Shown piece after piece: positions 6,553 to 21,480 of a stretch of DNA of 21,480 nucleotides. Source of the DNA: a virus; the IMG/VR virus record IMGVR_UViG_3300023184_000585, positions 1-21,480 of that record; one strand, given 5' to 3'. Every line of letters begins with the position of its first letter. Position 1 is the first letter of the stretch. A program made the position numbers and the translations under genes. Under the pieces are notes generated by a model that saw only the letters and a list, made by a program, of their open reading frames with translations, did no database searches and was not told where the DNA came from.

Positions 6553-6752
6553 CCAAGCAGACCGACGACATCTTGGGAGAGGCCTACACCGATGCATTGC
6601 TATACGGTGTGGGCATCATCAAAATCGTTAACACAATGGCTGGCCCACGGATGAGCTACGTGCCCCGTGAAGAGTTCACGCAACTGGCCGAACACTTAAA
6701 TTACGTGGTGGAAAACACCATGGACTTCACAGACACCCAGTCGAAGAGGTAA
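6549..6752 (+). CDS. hypothetical protein with GTG start
   Basis: A 67-residue protein read from GTG at 6549, in a GTGA overlap with the preceding stop. This is preferred over an in-frame ATG at 6474 that lies wholly within the previous gene. The sequence (DDILGEAYTDALLYGVGIIKIVNTMAG ... REEFTQLAEHLNYVVENTMDF) is helical with no recognised domain. It is the last gene before the packaging module. Confidence 0.55.
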   Translation: MTKQTDDILGEAYTDALLYGVGIIKIVNTMAGPRMSYVPREEFTQLAEHLNYVVENTMDFTDTQSKR

Positions 6753-6798: not shown

Positions 6799-7407
6799 AT
6801 GACCGACAAAAAGACAAGAGTCGCAACACGCGAAGAGAAGATCACATCGCCCGGCGTGTACGAAATGCCCGTCGCGCCAAAGAACAAGGGCGGTAGACCA
6901 TCCACATACGACCCTGACACCGCACGTAAGATGTGCGAACAACTTAGTGAGGGAATACCGTTAAGACAGATATGCAGGGAGAATGAAGGATTCCCAGCAT
7001 GGAGGACGGTGTATGACTGGATGAGGAAAGACCCCGACCTTTCCACATCCATCGCGCATGCACGTGACGTGGGATACGACGCCATGGCCGAGGAGTGCCT
7101 GATGATTGCCGACACTCCCCTGCTGGGTGAGGAGGTCAGCGAAAGCGAGACGCCTGAGGGCACCGATGAGGACGGCAACGTCATTGTGCGCCGGGTGGTG
7201 ACCATCAAAAAGGTGGACATGTTAGGCCACCGCAAACTTCAAATTGAGACCCGGCTCAAACTGCTGGCCAAGTTCAACCCCAAGAAGTACGGTGACCGAG
7301 TCACCCACAGTGGAGACGACGACAGCCCGGTGGTGATCGAGCACAACCTGAACGTGTTTGGTGACCTTCTCAAAGCCATCAAGCTACAGCGCCAATCGAG
7401 CATATGA
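6799..7407 (+). CDS. terS: terminase small subunit
   Basis: A 202-residue protein that should recognise the phage packaging site and present DNA to the large subunit. A helix-turn-helix DNA-binding region at about 41-82 has the typical pattern (GGRPSTYDPDTARKMCEQLSEGIPLRQIC, then PAWRTVYDWMRKDP). The central helices (HARDVGYDAMAEECLMIAD) and the KLQIETRLKLLAKFNPKKYGDR motif (146-167) are hallmarks of the Sf6-type small terminase family. It starts behind AAAGGACTGGAAT, and its stop overlaps the large subunit start by ATGA, matching the conserved terS-terL pair. Residues 112-136 form an acidic insertion. Confidence 0.9.
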   Translation: MTDKKTRVATREEKITSPGVYEMPVAPKNKGGRPSTYDPDTARKMCEQLSEGIPLRQICRENEGFPAWRTVYDWMRKDPDLSTSIAHARDVGYDAMAEECLMIADTPLLGEEVSESETPEGTDEDGNVIVRRVVTIKKVDMLGHRKLQIETRLKLLAKFNPKKYGDRVTHSGDDDSPVVIEHNLNVFGDLLKAIKLQRQSSI

Positions 7408-8837
7408 GTGCTGTAGACGCAATCCTCGAAGATCAAGAGTATCTCGACGAGGAGTACGCCAAACTGAGCCCCGTCTCTCAAGCGGTGGTCAACTGGCAAC
7501 TGAAGTGGCACAAAGAGGCCCACAAGCACCAGATCGAGCCCATGGGAGACTGGTGGTCATGTTGGTTACTTTTAGCTGGCAGAGGTGCGGGAAAGTCGCG
7601 TGCGGCGGCTGAAACACTTGCATGGTGGGCATGGGAGCAACCCAACACCCGCTGGCTGGTATCAGCCCCAACATCGGGTGACCTCAGGGGGGTTTGCTTT
7701 GAAGGCGACTCAGGCCTGCTCAAGGTTATCCCGGACGGCATGATCGCCAAGTACAACTCCAGCCTGCATGAGATATACCTCATCAACGGGTCATTCATCA
7801 AGGGCATCCCGGCGTCCGAGCCCGAGCGGTTCCGTGGGCCGCAGTTTCATGGGGGCTGGCTCGATGAGTTGGCCGCATGGGAGTACCTCAGAGAGTCATG
7901 GGACATGATCCAGTTCGGTATCCGACTGGGTGACCGCACCAAGCTGATCTGCTCGACCACACCCAAGCCAAAGGACGTGGTGATGGAATTGATCGAGCGT
8001 GAGGGCGACGACGTGGTGATCACCCGCGCCAGCACGTACAGCAACATTGCCAACTTGGCCAAGTCCTTCCAGAAGCAGATTCTCCAGTACGAGGGCACCA
8101 ACCTTGGCAGGCAGGAGATTCATGCTGAGATCATCGACCCCGAGGAAGGCGGCATCGTCCACCGTGACTGGTTCAGGCTCTGGCCAGACGGCAGGCCCTT
8201 CCCCCGGCTGGAGTACATCCTACAGTCCTACGACTGCGCCACCAGTGACAAGACCATCAACGACCCCACGGGATCGATCACGCTGGGCGTGTTCAAGCCT
8301 GAGGACGGTGGCATGTGCGTACTGATCCTTGACTGCTGGCAAGACCACCTTCAGTACCCGCAACTGCGCCCCAAGGTCATCGAGGAGTTCGAGACCGTCT
8401 ACGGTGAGGGCAAGACCCGAAAGCTGGTGGACGTGATCCTCGTGGAGGACAAGAGCGCAGGCATCAGCCTGATCCAAGACTTACAGCAGGCCCACCTGCC
8501 CGTGATTGCCTACAACCCCGGCCGGGCCGACAAGGTACAGCGACTGTCGATCGTGGCCAACATTATCAAAGCCGGGCGCGTGTGGGTGCCTGAGTCGTCC
8601 GTGCGCAAGGGCTTTGTCAAGGACTGGGCCGAAGGCATGGTCAGTCAGATATGCAGTTTCCCTGAAGGAGCGGTGCATGACGAGTTCGTGGACTGCATCA
8701 GTCAGGGGCTCAGGTACCTGAGGGATGCCGGGTGGATCAGCATTGACTACTCATCACGGGAAGAGATCGAGGAAGAGGACATCACCGACGCTGAGATATT
8801 CAACATGCGCGGCCGGGAGAATCCGTATGGAGCATGA
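7404..8837 (+). CDS. terL: terminase large subunit
   Basis: A 477-residue packaging motor with an N-terminal ATPase and a C-terminal RNase H-like nuclease. Walker A is GRGAGKS (59-65), Walker B is WLDE with Asp154/Glu155, and the coupling motif is STTP (184-187). The nuclease carries Asp277 in SYDCAT, Glu348/Asp349 in VEDKSAG, and Asp426/Asp430 in VHDEFVDC, the expected acidic triad region. The length is normal for terminases (about 450-550). It docks on the portal, translocates DNA by ATP hydrolysis and cuts the concatemer. It is coupled to terS by ATGA. All catalytic motifs appear intact. Confidence 0.95.
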   Translation: MSAVDAILEDQEYLDEEYAKLSPVSQAVVNWQLKWHKEAHKHQIEPMGDWWSCWLLLAGRGAGKSRAAAETLAWWAWEQPNTRWLVSAPTSGDLRGVCFEGDSGLLKVIPDGMIAKYNSSLHEIYLINGSFIKGIPASEPERFRGPQFHGGWLDELAAWEYLRESWDMIQFGIRLGDRTKLICSTTPKPKDVVMELIEREGDDVVITRASTYSNIANLAKSFQKQILQYEGTNLGRQEIHAEIIDPEEGGIVHRDWFRLWPDGRPFPRLEYILQSYDCATSDKTINDPTGSITLGVFKPEDGGMCVLILDCWQDHLQYPQLRPKVIEEFETVYGEGKTRKLVDVILVEDKSAGISLIQDLQQAHLPVIAYNPGRADKVQRLSIVANIIKAGRVWVPESSVRKGFVKDWAEGMVSQICSFPEGAVHDEFVDCISQGLRYLRDAGWISIDYSSREEIEEEDITDAEIFNMRGRENPYGA

Positions 8838-9149: not shown

Positions 9150-9186
9150 CCCCAAGGCATAATTGACATATTCAATGAGATCACCT

Positions 9187-12100
9187 ATGGCAGAACCAAA
9201 AAACACGGTTAAGGCATATAAACTGTTCCGAGTGCATCAAGAGCATCCGGGCAAGCTGTTCCCGTTGTTTGTGGACTCCACCACCCCGGTAGAGATGGAC
9301 AAATGGGTGGATGCAAAAGAAGGCGACATGGCCAATGGTAAGGTCAAGTCCAAGATTGGGCCTTTGGCGTATCGACCGGGGTGGCATGCGGGTGATCTAC
9401 CTATGGCCACGCACATTGGTGAGAAGTCCGACTCCAAAAAAACCGCGCCCGACCGCCGACCTTCCAACCACGCATGGGCTGAAATAGAAATGCCTGACGA
9501 CGTGGACTGGCAAGCTGAGGCCACCAAGCGCGGCACCAATGCACAAGGCAGGGTGGTGCCTGTGAAATCACACATCACCGACCAGATACCCAAGGGTGGC
9601 CACTACCGATACAAAACCAATCCCAACATGACGGGCAACTGGTTGATCGGTGGATCAATGAAGGTCAACAAGGTGTTGTCAGACGCTGAGGTGGAGCGCA
9701 TCAACAAGAAAGCTGGCATGGCCGATCTGCCCCGATCCCAGCCATTTAAAAAGAAAGACTTTGGTTTTGCTCATGGTGGCTGTGTGGCCCCGGATGAGTG
9801 GAAAGCCGAAGAGCATGTGAACTACGCTAAAGGTGGCTCTGTGATGGGCATCAACGTGGCCACAGACCGCAAGTCAGGCCGCAGGTATGCCGACATGATT
9901 GTGGACGGTCACAAAACCCTTGAATCACGCAACAGTGACACCTTGCGACCCTATGTGGGAAAACGTGTTGCCATCGTCAGGACGGGTGAGGGCAGGGCCA
10001 AAGCAATTGGAGAGGTAACCATTGGTGAGCCCATGGTGGTCAACAAACAAAAGTTTCGGGCGCTGGAAGACAAGCACCACGTGCCCGAAGGATCAGCATT
10101 TGACATTAACACGCCGACCAAACACTTGTACCCCATGCATGACCCAATCCGATACGACAAAGAGCGTGACGTTGGGCATGGCATTGTGTCACGCAAGGTC
10201 ATTGAAGAAGCCAAAGGAGGCACAGTGAAAGAACCTAAAAACACATGGGACTACGAGAACCAAAAGCACTTGACCAATATCTCTGGCCATGCCGCCCAAC
10301 ACCGTGATCTAAAAGACATCCCTGACGTGGCCAAGCACTTGCGTGAAACCCTGTCCGAAGGGCATCACCTACACATTGAAGACCCCCGCATTCAAAAGAG
10401 CATTGCTCATTATGGGCACGACTCATACTATGTGCGGGAAAAAGATGGCAAGAAAGCCCACGTAATAAACAAAGCAAAGGGGGGCGAAGTGCGTCCATCA
10501 ACAGCCCAAATGAAAATTGAACTTGCCCAAAAAGGCAACAAGGTTGACCTTAAAAATATTGGAGTGAACGAAGCGCCAAGCATGTCGCCCAAGCACTTCT
10601 TCCCACCAGAACGAAGTGACATTGGTATGCCCAGCCCCGGTGGCGTGGCCACACCCAAAAAAGGCATGCCCATTGGTGGCGTAGATATGAGCAAAACTCA
10701 AGTCGGTCAACAGTTGATGCCAACACCTCCCCAGCCACCACAAGGTGGCCAACCACCCGGCGCTCCTCCTCCTCCCGGTGGCCCCGGTGCCCCTCCGGGC
10801 GCGCCACCCGGTGCCCCACCAGCGCCAGCAGGCAACTTGCTCCAGATGACACCCCAAGGCCAGACCATGGCCGCATTGAGTGGTGGTGCCCCCGCTCAAA
10901 AGTTGGCAAAGGGTGGCCAGCCGTCTGTGAACGAGATGAAGGCTGAGATGGCGGCAAAGAAAGACGACTCCAAAGAAAAGCGCACAACGATTACGGCCCC
11001 CGGCGCTGGTGGCGTTAAGGGCATTGTGGTGCCAAAGCATTTGATTGAGGGAAACCCCAAAGCAGGCGCTGAAGGGTTGAAAAACATGATGGATGCGAGA
11101 GCAAAGGTCTACGGGGAAGAGCACCGTGAACCTTTAAACCTTGGTCAGGTAGGAAAAATCCACAAGCAAACGCTTGAAGATCACTTTGCAAAACCAATTG
11201 AAGAACAAAAGAGTGCAGAGCAAGAGGCTCTAAATAAAATCCGCGCCGCCAAATTTATCAAGCACAACAGAGACACGCTAGACGAGTCTGAAAAGCTAGA
11301 CACGGTGGAGCACGAGCACGACGATGAAGGTCGATCGCACGTTGGCTATGCGTCCAAAGGTATTGCAGGGCATGCGCTGTTTCCAAGAGGTCACGGCAAA
11401 GATATGGACTACAAGGTGATCAACACCTGCCCCGGTCAAACCGAAGGTTGTGGTGGCGGCAAGAGCGCCGAAGGCATCGTTGACACCAAGCAAGGTACAT
11501 GCTTTGCGCCCAATGCTGAATCTCAATACGCCGCCGCCGTCAGTCGTCGCGCTGGCCACGCAATTGCCAAGCACGATCCTGCTATGACCCGCGACTGGAT
11601 CATTGCTCACACTGGTTCAATGCGTAACGCATCAGATAGAGCAGACAAGCAAAACAAGCGCATGCTGTACCGTCCTAATGTTGTGGACGAGACTGACGTG
11701 TCCTCACGCCACGTCATTCGTCATTTGAACGAACAGCGCAAGATGGATGACAAACCACCGATCATTGCCAACTCATACGGCAAAACCAACGAGTTGCATG
11801 ACCCAGAAAATGGCTACCATGTGACGCACTCAAATGTGGGCCCCAAAGTCAAAAAAGGTCAGGAAGTTAGCGAGAACATTTCCCGCGACAAAGCACGTGT
11901 TCGCAACACCGTGATGGCGGCTGATAACCAAGGCGACTTTAAAAACGAGCAGGGCAATAAGACGCCGCCCAAGGGCTCGTACATGGTGACTGACGTGAAG
12001 CGTGGCTCCCCCATGGCCAAGAAGATGGAAGGCGCAATCACCCACGCCAAGTACTGGACAACAGGACGCCCTGAGAATGAGTTGAGCGAGTCAGAGAAAG

Positions 12101-12756
12101 ACGAGGGCCCGGAAGGCCACTACAGCGGCTCTGGACGCAAGACCGACGAAGACAAAGCCCACTACGGGCACACCACCCAAGATGGCTTGCGCTACGACTA
12201 TCAGCGCCAGCATGTACTGCACCCACGCTTGGTTCAAGTAGGTAAAAACGATGACGGTACTCCGCACATAATTCCAACCGACTCACGGTTCAAAGACACT
12301 GAGTTCCTGCCAAAAAACAGGTACAAAACAAAGAACGGCAAAGATGCTGGCCACATCTTGATGACCACGCCCACTGAGTCCACCAGCAACATTGGCCATC
12401 AAACATCGTTCACACACAATGTGGGCGACAAGCACATCGAGCACGCGCAAAAAAACAATGGCGAGTACGAGATCGACAAGCCAGAAGATCAAGCCAAGGC
12501 CAAAGGCAAAGAGTACGCCGCACCTCAGGCAATCAAGTTCTATGCAGAAGGCGGCACCGTAGATGGCCGTCACCGTGGTTTCAGTCACGACGACTTCCAT
12601 GCATTCCCTGAACAAAACGTGGTGGCCCAGCGCCACTTGGCTATGCGTCACGGTGAAGATGAACATAAACAAGGCGCTCCAAAAAAAGCTGTTGTTGTTC
12701 ACAACTCATTGGGCGCAATGCAACTTGAAATGTTAAAAAACAAAAAGGCTAAATGA
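9187..12756 (+). CDS. giant modular KGG-linked protein (candidate polyvalent virion protein)
   Basis: About 1189 residues, set between terL and portal. The start at 9187 is chosen for a weak GAG 7 nt upstream; ATG 9175 and TTG 9163 are alternatives. Modules are separated by [FYEKL]A[KEH]GG peptides at residues 194, 213, 341, 429, 573 and 1119. Module 1 (1-190) is a globular domain (KAYKLFRV ... GNWLIGGSMKVNKVLSD). Module 2 (220-340) looks like an ASCH/PUA-fold domain (ADMIVDGHKTLESR ... GEGRAKAIGEV). Module 3 (348-428) is unknown. Then come a Pro-rich linker (about 510-548) and a large module (575-1118) holding TCPGQTEGC and GTCFAP, with a faint resemblance to phage gp88-type proteins. Large multidomain phage proteins in this position are often packaged and act on the host; that role is inferred. 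Confidence 0.75.
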   Translation: MAEPKNTVKAYKLFRVHQEHPGKLFPLFVDSTTPVEMDKWVDAKEGDMANGKVKSKIGPLAYRPGWHAGDLPMATHIGEKSDSKKTAPDRRPSNHAWAEIEMPDDVDWQAEATKRGTNAQGRVVPVKSHITDQIPKGGHYRYKTNPNMTGNWLIGGSMKVNKVLSDAEVERINKKAGMADLPRSQPFKKKDFGFAHGGCVAPDEWKAEEHVNYAKGGSVMGINVATDRKSGRRYADMIVDGHKTLESRNSDTLRPYVGKRVAIVRTGEGRAKAIGEVTIGEPMVVNKQKFRALEDKHHVPEGSAFDINTPTKHLYPMHDPIRYDKERDVGHGIVSRKVIEEAKGGTVKEPKNTWDYENQKHLTNISGHAAQHRDLKDIPDVAKHLRETLSEGHHLHIEDPRIQKSIAHYGHDSYYVREKDGKKAHVINKAKGGEVRPSTAQMKIELAQKGNKVDLKNIGVNEAPSMSPKHFFPPERSDIGMPSPGGVATPKKGMPIGGVDMSKTQVGQQLMPTPPQPPQGGQPPGAPPPPGGPGAPPGAPPGAPPAPAGNLLQMTPQGQTMAALSGGAPAQKLAKGGQPSVNEMKAEMAAKKDDSKEKRTTITAPGAGGVKGIVVPKHLIEGNPKAGAEGLKNMMDARAKVYGEEHREPLNLGQVGKIHKQTLEDHFAKPIEEQKSAEQEALNKIRAAKFIKHNRDTLDESEKLDTVEHEHDDEGRSHVGYASKGIAGHALFPRGHGKDMDYKVINTCPGQTEGCGGGKSAEGIVDTKQGTCFAPNAESQYAAAVSRRAGHAIAKHDPAMTRDWIIAHTGSMRNASDRADKQNKRMLYRPNVVDETDVSSRHVIRHLNEQRKMDDKPPIIANSYGKTNELHDPENGYHVTHSNVGPKVKKGQEVSENISRDKARVRNTVMAADNQGDFKNEQGNKTPPKGSYMVTDVKRGSPMAKKMEGAITHAKYWTTGRPENELSESEKDEGPEGHYSGSGRKTDEDKAHYGHTTQDGLRYDYQRQHVLHPRLVQVGKNDDGTPHIIPTDSRFKDTEFLPKNRYKTKNGKDAGHILMTTPTESTSNIGHQTSFTHNVGDKHIEHAQKNNGEYEIDKPEDQAKAKGKEYAAPQAIKFYAEGGTVDGRHRGFSHDDFHAFPEQNVVAQRHLAMRHGEDEHKQGAPKKAVVVHNSLGAMQLEMLKNKKAK

Positions 12757-15221
12757 TGGCAACAAAAAATTTAGGCGATCTTGACATTGAAGAACAAGAA
12801 GACGGCAGTGCCGTTGTTGATCTTCCCGAGATGAGCACGGAAGAGCAAGAAGACGGCTCGGCCATTGTTGACATTGATGACGGGCCAGAATTTAACCCCG
12901 AGTTTTACGACAATCTTGCAGACAGCATTGACCCCAGCGTTATTTCAACACTGGCATTCAGGTATCTTGATTTACTTGAAACGGACAAAGAAGCGCGCTC
13001 ACTGCGCGACAAACAATATGAAGAGGGCATCAGGCGCACTGGTATGGGCAATGATGCCCCCGGAGGTGCTACCTTTATGGGTGCATCTAAAGTGGTTCAC
13101 CCTGCCATGGCTGAGGGCTGTGTGGATTTTGCCAGCCGCGCAATTAAAGAAATGTTCCCGCCTGATGGCCCTGTCAAGACCAAAATTATTGGCAAGATGG
13201 ACGACCTCAAGTCGGCAAAGTCGGAACGCAAACGAGACTTTTTAAATTGGCAAATTACTGACCAAATTGAAGAGTTCAAAGACGAGCAAGAACAGTTGCT
13301 GACCCAGTTGCCACTGGGCGGTTCACAGTACTTTAAGCTGTGGTTTGACGAGCAGAAAAAACGCCCATGCGTGGAGTTCTTGCCAATCGACCGTGTGATC
13401 CTGCCCTTTGCGGCCACCAACTTTTACACGGCCCAGCGCGCCGCTGAAGTCCACGAAATCACGCAGTACGAATTTGAACGACGCATCCGCACTGGCATGT
13501 ACCGTGACGTAAGTTACATCAAAGCCTCTGGGACGTTAAATCAAAACAAAGTTGAGCAAGCCAACAACAAAATTGAAGGCAAGCAATTTGAGGAAAATAA
13601 AGATGGCCTGCGCAAGGTCTATCACATCTACTGCTACTTGGAGTTGGAAGACGACAAGGCAACCAAAGGCGATTACGCACCCTACATCTTGATGGTTGAT
13701 GAACTTGACAATCAAGTTGTGGGTTTGTATCGCAACTGGGAAGAGCAAGACGATACCCGCACCAAACTGGACTGGGTTGTAGAGTTCAAATTCATCCCGT
13801 GGCGCGGCGCGTATGCCATTGGGCTACCTCACCTCATTGGAGGTCTCAGCGCGGCCTTGACGGGTGCATTGCGTGCCTTGCTGGACACTGCGCACATCAA
13901 CAACTCGGCCACCATGCTGAAGTTGAAGGGAGCCAAGATTAGTGGCCAGTCACAACAGGTTGATGTCACCCAGATCATTGAGATTGAAGGCGCGCCCGGC
14001 GTGCAGGACATTCGCCAAATTGCAATGCCAATGCCGTTCAACCCGCCCAGCCCCGTGCTGTTTGAGTTGCTGGGTTGGTTAGATACAGCCGCCAAAGGCG
14101 TGGTCACCACCAGTGAAGAGAAGATTGCTGATGTCACAAGCAATGCGCCCGTGGGCACCACGCAGGCTTTGATTGAACAAGGCGCGGCAGTGTTTTCATC
14201 GATTCACTCGCGCATGCACGACTCACAAGCCCGTGTGTTGAAGATTTTGTGCCGTTTAAACCGCTGGCACTTTGACGAGATGAAAAAAGGCGACATTGTT
14301 GCCGACTTAGAAATCAACCGCGACGATTTTGAAAAGAACACCGACGTGGTGCCTGTGTCTGATCCTCATATCTTCAGTGAGACTCAGCGCATGGCACAAA
14401 ACCAAGCCGTGTTGGCGTTGGCAGAAAAGCACCCTGAGCAGTTCAACATAAGTGCTGTATTGAGCCGCATGCTCAAACAAATGAAAGTGCCAAACATCAA
14501 TGAGTTGATGAAAGACGTGCCATCACCAGAACAGCGTACATCGGCCGACGAAAACGCCGCCATGCTTGTTGGTCAACCAGCCTATGCGTACTTGCAACAA
14601 GATCACATTGCGCACATTCAAGATCACTTGCAATTTGCAATGAACCCGTTCTTGGGACAATCTCCATTTGCAGACCCAAATTACTTAAACAATTTGATCG
14701 AGCATTTAAAACAACACATGACGCTGTGGTACCTCAACCGCTCCAACGGTTACGTAGAAGAGTCTGTGGGCAAGCCTGTGGACGACTACGACGATCCAGC
14801 ACTCACAGCCACCATTGACAAGGTCTATACCGCTGTGGGCGCGCATGTCATGTTGGACACCCAACAAGTGTTTGGCCAGTTCCAGCAAGCCTTGGCATCG
14901 CTTGTTCAAATGGCACAGCAACGCAAAGGCGCTCCACCACCACTGCCAGCAGACGCTCAAGTGGTCAAAGACACCAGCATGGCCGAGACTCAACGCAAGA
15001 CTCAAGCAGATCAAGCAAAGTCGCAATACGACCAAGCCAAATTGCAATTTGACAACCAAAAACTTCAGATGGACAACCAAACAAAAATTGCCATCGAAAA
15101 TTCAAAATTGACGCACGAGACAATTCAAAATATGTCGCAGGCGCAACCACCGCAGGAACCACCTGCACAACCCCCGGCAGTAATGCCACAACCTCAAGGA
15201 GTTCCAAATGTCAACCAGTGA
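12753..15221 (+). CDS. portal protein, P22-like
   Basis: An 822-residue protein expected to form the dodecameric ring at the capsid vertex through which DNA is packaged. Family-like stretches: the opening helix LLETDKEARSLRDKQYEEG, GASKVVHPAMAEGCVDFASRAIKEMFPP, and the mid-region LPLGGSQYFKLWFDEQKKRPCVEFLPIDRVILP. The core helix region follows (GALRALLDTAHINNSATMLKLKG). Length and order fit the large P22-type portals (about 725). Residues 13-43 carry two copies of EEQEDGSA[VI]VD, also found in the scaffold. The C-terminus (about 740-790) is a Gln-rich coiled coil with a Pro tail. The start overlaps the previous stop; ATG 12756 is an alternative. Confidence 0.88.
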   Translation: MMATKNLGDLDIEEQEDGSAVVDLPEMSTEEQEDGSAIVDIDDGPEFNPEFYDNLADSIDPSVISTLAFRYLDLLETDKEARSLRDKQYEEGIRRTGMGNDAPGGATFMGASKVVHPAMAEGCVDFASRAIKEMFPPDGPVKTKIIGKMDDLKSAKSERKRDFLNWQITDQIEEFKDEQEQLLTQLPLGGSQYFKLWFDEQKKRPCVEFLPIDRVILPFAATNFYTAQRAAEVHEITQYEFERRIRTGMYRDVSYIKASGTLNQNKVEQANNKIEGKQFEENKDGLRKVYHIYCYLELEDDKATKGDYAPYILMVDELDNQVVGLYRNWEEQDDTRTKLDWVVEFKFIPWRGAYAIGLPHLIGGLSAALTGALRALLDTAHINNSATMLKLKGAKISGQSQQVDVTQIIEIEGAPGVQDIRQIAMPMPFNPPSPVLFELLGWLDTAAKGVVTTSEEKIADVTSNAPVGTTQALIEQGAAVFSSIHSRMHDSQARVLKILCRLNRWHFDEMKKGDIVADLEINRDDFEKNTDVVPVSDPHIFSETQRMAQNQAVLALAEKHPEQFNISAVLSRMLKQMKVPNINELMKDVPSPEQRTSADENAAMLVGQPAYAYLQQDHIAHIQDHLQFAMNPFLGQSPFADPNYLNNLIEHLKQHMTLWYLNRSNGYVEESVGKPVDDYDDPALTATIDKVYTAVGAHVMLDTQQVFGQFQQALASLVQMAQQRKGAPPPLPADAQVVKDTSMAETQRKTQADQAKSQYDQAKLQFDNQKLQMDNQTKIAIENSKLTHETIQNMSQAQPPQEPPAQPPAVMPQPQGVPNVNQ
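12789..12881 (+). repeat. duplicated acidic peptide in portal N-terminus
   Basis: Portal residues 13-26 (EEQEDGSAVVDLPE) and 30-43 (EEQEDGSAIVDIDD) are a tandem peptide duplication. A third copy, EEQDGSAVVDLPE, lies at scaffold residues 15-27 (16134-16172). Codons differ at many synonymous positions between copies, so the likeness is kept at protein level. Confidence 0.8.
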
Positions 15222-20213: not shown

Positions 20214-21480
20214 ATGGGACAATTTAAACCAATGGTCAAAATGATGACCGATGAGCCTTCAGTTATTCTGAAACTGAAAAAAGGCGGCAAAGTTAAATCC
20301 AAAGCCGCTGGTCAGTCCGACGCTTTCAAATCCATGGCAAGTAACAATTCCAAGGTGTTTGAAGACGCTGAAAGTGGCATGGCTCCTAAAAAACCATCCA
20401 TGGCTGTGCGTCGTCGCGCAATGAACCCCAACATGTATGCCAAGGGCGGCAAAGTCGCTCACAAGCAAATGGGTGGTGGTATGCCTATGGCCGCAAGCCC
20501 CGGCATGGTGCCCGGAGCCACTTCACCTGCTCCTGCGCCTATGCAGGCTATGGGTCGTAACGCTTTAGCTGGTATGACGCCAAACAAACGCGCAATGCGT
20601 GCCGCCATGGTTCAAAAGGCTTTGTCTGGCATGAAAGACGGCGGTTCTGCTGAGTGCAAGTCTCTTATGAAAGAGTTGAAGCACCACGAGTCAATGTCTG
20701 CCCAGCGCGCTCACGGCAAAGCTGGTGGCGGCAAAGTCAGTACTTACGCCAAAACCAAAATGGATACTGCCAAAAAAGACAGCGCCCATGGTACTGGTGA
20801 AGTCAAAGAAGGCAAACCCGGTGGCTATGCCATGGGCGGTAGCATCATGGGCAACGAGAAGGCCTATGAGAACACCAAGATGCACACAGCAAAGCGTGAC
20901 ACAGCCCATGGTACTGGTGGCATTAAAGAACGCAACGCAGGCGGTTTTGCCAAGGGTGGCAAGGTGCCCGGCGTAGGTCGCGCCATTGAAGGTGGCAACT
21001 GGGAAAACCGTCCTGCTGACACAGCCAAGCCCGGCATCAAGAACGGCACCACTGGTGGCGTGAAAGAAGCAAATGCTGGCGGCTACAAAAAAGGCGGTGC
21101 CGCAAAAAAGCGTTTTGCTACGGGGGGTCAAGTCGTTGATGACGGCAAGGCAGTAAAGATGCCTCGTCACTTCGTCTCGCGTCCCGTAGCCAACAGCTTG
21201 CAGTCTGGCACCTTTGCCAAGGGCGGTAAGGTTGAGAAAGAGGAGAAGCCAAACCTTCGCCTCGTCAAGACCCATACTGGCCCAAAAGGCCATGTAGCAA
21301 AAACCTACAAGGACAGAGATTATGGTGAGTACAGAACAAAATTCTTTACTCCCGAAGGCAAACACTTGCCCGATTCGGACAACCATACTGATGCCCTTGA
21401 CGATGCCTTTGGGACTGCACAGTCTCAAGTCAACAAAGGATACAAAAAAGGTGGCAAGGTTCGTTTTGCAGAAGGTGGTA
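20214..21480 (+). CDS. KGG-repeat modular protein (3' truncated)
   Basis: The frame is open from ATG 20214 (behind TAGGAGGTCGTT) to the window end, at least 422 residues. Motifs of the form [FY][AK][KME]GG[KSQ][VI] occur at residues 22, 75, 205, 245, 291, 301, 334, 410 and 418, plus GGGKV at 171. Residues 182-297 hold three degenerate tandem units (TAK-x-D-x-AHGTG-x-VKE-x-NAGG). Residues 346-405 look like a small folded domain (LRLVKTHTGPKGHVAKTYKDR, GEYRTKFF, DALDDAFGTAQS). The protein is rich in Lys, Gly, Ala and Met and mostly disordered. The same GG linkers occur in the giant protein at 9187. It is probably a virion-associated protein; function unknown. Confidence 0.7.
   Translation, partial: MGQFKPMVKMMTDEPSVILKLKKGGKVKSKAAGQSDAFKSMASNNSKVFEDAESGMAPKKPSMAVRRRAMNPNMYAKGGKVAHKQMGGGMPMAASPGMVPGATSPAPAPMQAMGRNALAGMTPNKRAMRAAMVQKALSGMKDGGSAECKSLMKELKHHESMSAQRAHGKAGGGKVSTYAKTKMDTAKKDSAHGTGEVKEGKPGGYAMGGSIMGNEKAYENTKMHTAKRDTAHGTGGIKERNAGGFAKGGKVPGVGRAIEGGNWENRPADTAKPGIKNGTTGGVKEANAGGYKKGGAAKKRFATGGQVVDDGKAVKMPRHFVSRPVANSLQSGTFAKGGKVEKEEKPNLRLVKTHTGPKGHVAKTYKDRDYGEYRTKFFTPEGKHLPDSDNHTDALDDAFGTAQSQVNKGYKKGGKVRFAEGG
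20757..21104 (+). repeat. three tandem coding repeats in the KGG protein
   Basis: Units at about 20757-20846, 20877-20966 and 21012-21104 encode TAKKDSAHGTGEVKEGKPGG-YAMGG, TAKRDTAHGTGGIKERNAGG-FAKGG and TAKPGIKNGTTGGVKEANAGG-YKKGG. The first two share the 16-nt GCCCATGGTACTGGTG; the third is more diverged. Confidence 0.8.

Follow-up and report, generated by a model that had tools for sequence, protein, structure and literature searches.

A short Gly-Gly peptide at the borders and apparent exchange points of modules in a polyvalent-type phage protein

A 1189-residue protein encoded in the window (the whole 21,480-nucleotide stretch of viral DNA analysed here, IMG/VR record IMGVR_UViG_3300023184_000585) is a chain of different modules punctuated by a short Ala-x-Gly-Gly peptide, and comparison with its relatives shows these peptides, as far as sequences tell, to be both the borders of modules and the points at which modules are exchanged, in two phage lineages. 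We propose that this is a delivered chain of the polyvalent type built on a constant GP88-like core, with xAxGGxV junctions that are selected at the peptide level and with a short helix as a tag; our rough probability for this joint reading is 0.72.

Results

The reading frame runs on the forward strand from an ATG at 9187 to a stop at 12756, with an alternative upstream TTG start at 9163. The gene order is Sf6-like small subunit, TerL (7404-8837), modular protein (9187-12756) and portal (12753-15221); the stop of the modular-protein frame overlaps the portal start, inside which its final codons fall. Homologues occupy the same place, between TerL and portal, in IMG/VR contigs and in MW202545. 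An earlier note on this DNA, made from the letters alone, had placed a protein of about 1189 residues between terminase and portal, and this holds: the reading frame is real and its flanks are TerL and portal. The window genes examined were all viral and the contig is short (27,455 bases as reported), so a phage contig was probably placed in a bacterial bin. A PADLOC search gave no match. The features are as follows.

9187..12756, + strand: whole modular protein, 1189 aa, in the TerL-portal interval (reading frame call; same-place homologues)
9187..9765, + strand: module 1, phrog_30118 family (E 1.2e-63)
9766..9780, + strand: GG peptide 1, FAHGG (motif count)
9823..9837, + strand: GG peptide 2, YAKGG, bounding the ASCH cassette on the left (motif count and junction comparison)
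9838..10206, + strand: ASCH module, PF04266, absent from relative L007 (profile match)
10207..10221, + strand: GG peptide 3, EAKGG, bounding the ASCH cassette on the right (motif count and junction comparison)
10222..10470, + strand: 'FDYEN' module (profile match to ART-PolyVal modules, C-terminal half)
10471..10485, + strand: GG peptide 4, KAKGG (motif count)
10504..10524, + strand: helix AQMKIEL after GG peptide 4 (model helix at residues 439-447; motif count)
10525..10902, + strand: Pro/Gly-rich linker module, probably disordered (module comparison and AlphaFold2 model)
10903..10917, + strand: GG peptide 5, LAKGG (motif count)
10930..10950, + strand: helix NEMKAEM after GG peptide 5 (model helix at residues 581-591; motif count)
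10978..12540, + strand: constant GP88-like core with three invariant cysteines, C-x6-C-x16-C (profile, fold, alignment)
12541..12555, + strand: GG peptide 6, YAEGG (motif count)
12556..12753, + strand: C-terminal tail with helix element GAMQLEM at 12712-12732; the stop and the portal start overlap (model and motif count)
20214..21479, + strand: separate protein P0002, just after the capsid genes, rich in YAKGG/FAKGG/YAMGG (runs off the window)

The six xA[KEH]GG peptides of the modular protein begin at residues 194 (FAHGG), 213 (YAKGG), 341 (EAKGG), 429 (KAKGG), 573 (LAKGG) and 1119 (YAEGG), against a mean of 0.61 xAxGG in composition-matched shuffled copies (maximum 6 in 5000). With modules identified between the peptides, this bears out the proposal that six GG peptides separate different modules. 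Their description as aromatic/Ala-Lys/Glu-Gly-Gly was right in part: A-x-GG is found in all six, but an aromatic first residue in only three. Nine further GG pairs of the window protein do not follow the pattern, and IPKGG at 137, LIGG at 155, GAGG at 608 and CGGG at 756 are pairs of this kind that lie within domains. When the whole protein is modelled with AlphaFold2, each of the six peptides falls in a stretch of low pLDDT between or beside folded parts, outside the well-folded domains, in agreement with the view that they stand at domain borders and not inside domains; the ASCH region, nearly without alignment depth, is poorly modelled, and its low confidence reflects this limit of the input and is no counter-evidence to a domain. 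Homologues, to which the earlier note had looked for conservation of the motif, keep the GG peptides. Ala is preferred at -2 (92%) and Val at +2 (63%), and Ser, Ala or Thr is common after GG, preferences that follow partly from the definition of the motif, the Val at +2 excepted.

Module 1 (residues 1-193, phrog_30118) is mobile, being found also in Roseobacter phage CRP-212 and in MW202675-type phages; its sequence had no significant match in the PDB. The ASCH-like domain that had been suspected is recognised by PF04266 at residues 231-306 (E 1.2e-5), with 26.4 bits above the gathering cut-off of 21.2. The FDYEN module (residues ~345-428) is equivalent to half of an ART-PolyVal-type module, the C-terminal one, the N-terminal half with YHGT being absent, and its profile retrieves the full ART modules of relatives with E values down to 1e-18; the Pro/Gly-rich stretch takes up residues 430-572.

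No other part of the family is nearly as conserved as the core, which has a mean column identity of 75% over 52 aligned sequences, in every one of which the cysteines C-x6-C-x16-C are kept. It is modelled with confidence (residues 598-1118; pLDDT 84.8, pTM 0.84) and its fold matches GP88 proteins in BFVD. The GP88 profile PF17338 was matched by all 13 core sequences tested (best E 1.6e-7), and the window protein scored 20.3 bits against it, or 21.6 for the core alone, under the gathering cut-off of 24.4. Since this score is below the cut-off while other members and the fold match, we describe the core as related to GP88 and do not assign it to PF17338. The top structural matches of the core were radical SAM barrels, with weak Z values of 4.7 and 4.2; a radical SAM enzyme was considered and set aside, the cysteines being spaced C-x6-C-x16-C and not as the canonical CxxxCxxC. 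The core sequence found no solved relative in the PDB, and a Foldseek search of the whole model against the PDB gave no significant match.

Relatives were drawn from IMG/VR and GTDB contigs and from MW202545, and a breakpoint was defined as identity of at least 50% over 25 aa that stops abruptly, with at most 25% immediately beyond. For close relatives, an xAxGG was no more than 8 aa away from 46 of 58 breakpoints (4.8 expected; maximum 13 in 5000 draws), and equally near to 257 of the 450 clean breakpoints in 122 non-redundant proteins (34.7 expected; maximum 56 in 1000), these counts not being independent, as related proteins share events. As a control, GG pairs outside the motif in these 122 proteins had 44 breakpoints against 51 expected. 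When the peptides were masked before alignment, 350 of 618 breakpoints were still at xAxGG (48.5 expected), with 39 at other GG pairs (72 expected). Nearly half of the breakpoints lie away from the peptide, and the large LQSDWHQ module contains some of these.

Recent events give finer resolution. Among 15 gains or losses of modules with flanks of at least 85% DNA identity, 14 have their junction no more than 2 aa from the motif and one has it at 5 aa; with the breakpoint excess, this upholds the earlier suggestion that domains are exchanged at the GG peptides. Relative L007, ~98% identical to the window, is without the 384 nt that carry the ASCH module, its YAKGGSV being joined directly to KEPKNTW, and it has an ART-PolyVal module (E 1.7e-17) ahead of MAKGGEV where the corresponding start in the window is MAEPKN. 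Compared in this way, the unit of gain and loss is, as read from the genes, one module together with one GG peptide. Architectures vary strongly among relatives, and one module may be found beside many different neighbours; in relatives L012 and L015 the peptide is gone at a seam and the modules are retained. We also noted in L015 an in-frame stop (6553-6555) that splits the protein near the end of the phrog_30118 module, both halves being still open and similar.

That the peptides are plain flexible linkers, lying at borders that tolerate insertions and having no partner of their own, is in our view unlikely. Such a reading would accommodate the low pLDDT around every GG peptide and the general tendency of breakpoints in multidomain proteins towards linkers; however, in the main family breakpoints are not in excess at the remaining GG pairs of these proteins, and the preferences of the motif extend beyond GG and are common to two lineages. 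We think it very improbable that module exchange is driven by the coding DNA of the peptide acting as a recombination substrate in its own right. The motif codons do stand as direct repeats on either side of inserted modules, and the alignments of recent junctions share as much as 30 nt of overlap, but exact runs at the ASCH junction are only ~5-6 nt and synonymous sharing within the gene is no greater than codon usage predicts (third-position identity of motif copies 0.372, against 0.356 expected). The idea of the motif as a recombination site at the DNA level is thus not supported, and, given that motif copies resemble one another at synonymous positions no more than by chance, selection seems to act on the peptide and not on a DNA site.

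A similar format is found in a second lineage. MW202675, an annotated myophage with its own portal and terminase, encodes three large proteins after its portal gene, with GNAT, M15 peptidase and ART-PolyVal; LQSDWHQ; and InPase (E 2e-47) modules, and here too xxGGxV peptides separate the modules, with phrog_30118-like modules (KAYKLFR) also standing behind GG peptides. In relatives of MW202675, 107 of 169 breakpoints are at GG peptides (12.5 expected), with a weaker control in this lineage, other GG pairs having 35 against 19.6 expected. A universal GG rule for the InPase class was tried and rejected, GG preceding the InPase module in only 19 of 65 proteins; since most of the InPase modules found in other phages are without a preceding GG, the format appears to be bound to lineages and not required for the class. 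Within the window, P0002 packs YAKGG, FAKGG, YAMGG and KAGGG into degenerate repeats, and its sole relative among phage records is in MW202545.

The GG peptides could instead be protease sites, a phage or host enzyme cutting after Gly-Gly to free the modules before packaging or after delivery; adenovirus and African swine fever virus offer examples of Gly-Gly-X cleavage. The motif is stricter than a passive linker requires, in its Ala at -2, its Val at +2 and the frequent Ser, Ala or Thr after GG, and P0002, another protein of the head region, is likewise crowded with this peptide. In tailed phages, short motifs mark the sites at which head proteins are processed, as with gp245 of SPN3US (A-X-E, with a preference for Ser at P1'; PMC10052503), and polyvalent proteins are expected to be processed by built-in metallopeptidases (Iyer et al., PMC5512222). 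However, Pfam recognised no peptidase in the modular protein or in the neighbouring proteins scanned, and some relatives keep seams that have no GG, so we hold this reading to be doubtful.

A second element accompanies the peptides: a short helix, xxM(R/K)x(E/A)(L/M), of which there are 231 copies in the 122 proteins (12.1 in shuffles), at a density of 1.74 per 1000 aa in the family against 0.20 in other reading frames. Almost half of the copies (113 of 231) follow a GG peptide within 20 aa, a zone that makes up 8% of residues, while 68 are found in the last 30 aa before the C-terminus and 24 close to the N-terminus. Three copies belong to the window protein, and AlphaFold2 predicts each of them as a short helix in disordered surroundings; the helix peptide is PSVNEMKAEMAAKK, and the copy in the C-terminal tail is GAMQLEM. 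In the second lineage 2 copies were found against 5.7 expected. The helix would most probably serve this lineage as a tag for docking or packaging and, if a packaging tag exists, the 'xxMRxEL' helix beside GG would be a better candidate than the GG peptide itself. The C-termini 'KKAK' and 'ERxL' were tried as tags and rejected, their last codons coinciding with the start of the next gene, and we therefore count only the preceding helix as an element. In L034, L035, L065, L108, L123, L140, L144 and L145, at least two overlapping genes often share the module chain, the upstream ones ending in a conserved 'HxIxxxERxL' tail that perhaps codes for the ribosome site of the next gene.

Discussion

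As marks of the polyvalent class we took 2-15 distinct domains, virion or packaging neighbours in a portal-terminase phage, a catalogued domain and variable architecture. The window protein has phrog_30118, ASCH, half-ART and GP88-like core domains in one polypeptide, lies between TerL and portal as its relatives do, and belongs to a family of variable architecture; of catalogued polyvalent domains it has only the C-terminal ART-PolyVal half, with a full module in L007. The peptide-bordered modules of the family include ART-PolyVal (PF18760; E 1.7e-17 in L007, 4e-21 in L009, 9e-25 in L129), GNAT, GDSL lipase, PcfJ-like, ParB-type (phrog_2579, E 1e-29), L5 gp82-like, ASCH, phrog_30118 and LQSDWHQ. 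The proposal that this is a polyvalent-type protein is well supported by such sequence relationships, direct relatives carrying ART-PolyVal, GNAT, GDSL, PcfJ and ParB-like modules in the same type of chain; a role of the window protein in countering host defences is suggested by family resemblance only.

L157 (PQ492659, Limnohabitans phage DC33) is filed under Inoviridae yet is 39 kb long and encodes a 3125-aa protein that matches an ART-PolyVal module; this taxonomy looks wrong. Related polyvalent-type genes are also found in contigs binned as bacterial (L154, JASGCE010000001, in a Paceibacterota MAG; L153 in a Rubrivivax MAG), which are likely phage contigs.

The protein would probably be delivered with the virion. 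Alternatively it would be an ordinary late intracellular protein, not delivered, whose modules act on phage assembly or phage DNA, and to our knowledge neither ASCH nor GP88 has a delivered role. We judge this quite improbable: the gene lies in the head gene cluster and overlaps the portal gene, the same type of chain carries ART-PolyVal, M15 and InPase modules, and the LQSDWHQ module is found in gp34 of the cultured Pelagibacter phage HTVC028P, near genes for a 'putative internal protein A' and a 'putative internal virion protein'.

Our main reading remains the delivered chain. Independently folding effector and accessory modules would be chained around the constant GP88-like core; the gene stands among those for the head, and the protein would probably travel in the virion and be delivered along with the phage DNA. 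In this scheme xAxGGxV is the standard junction between modules, and a unit of module plus GG would let insertion, deletion and replacement stay in frame without breaking a fold; the peptide, perhaps a flexible hinge with a recognised sequence, would be kept by selection on the protein. The 'P(S/T)xxxM(R/K)xEL' helix, which follows many GG peptides and stands at protein ends, could then act in docking or packaging.

More tentatively, several phage lineages may share a cassette format defined by this peptide, with xAxGGxV being read by a common partner such as a protease or a head-assembly protein. If so, the junction would be a plug that makes effector modules interchangeable between phage lineages, and an effector acquired in this format would at once be packaged, spaced or released correctly. 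The peptide allows unknown phage giants to be dissected into modules from sequence alone and new delivered effectors to be sought between the peptides, and it would reduce the packaging, processing and diversification of polyvalent proteins to a bench test on one short motif. We found no description of the junction peptide in the literature on GG cleavage, domain shuffling and ART-PolyVal, within a coverage outside which most subscription papers lie.

T4 internal proteins and microcompartment cargo carry capsid-targeting or encapsulation peptides, short helices at the ends of proteins or between domains with flexible linkers, to which our helix bears a resemblance of layout only. The GP88 family resembles the core in fold and profile, and here a GP88-like domain is fused to a chain of modules. 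Like the polyvalent proteins of Iyer et al. (2017, PMC5512222), which vary in architecture and for which cassette-like variation was already suggested, the window family is large, multidomain and encoded beside virion genes, with ART-PolyVal and InPase in relatives; unlike them, it has no metallopeptidase that we could find, and a defined peptide punctuates its modules and marks their exchange points. The words ASCH, glycine and linker are absent from the main text of that paper, as are linker, glycine, breakpoint and polyvalent from that of a study of phage protein mosaicism (PMC10684548, 2023). The mosaic proteins of the latter likewise reflect recent exchange of fragments between phages, and in the family described here a short peptide predicts where that exchange takes place.
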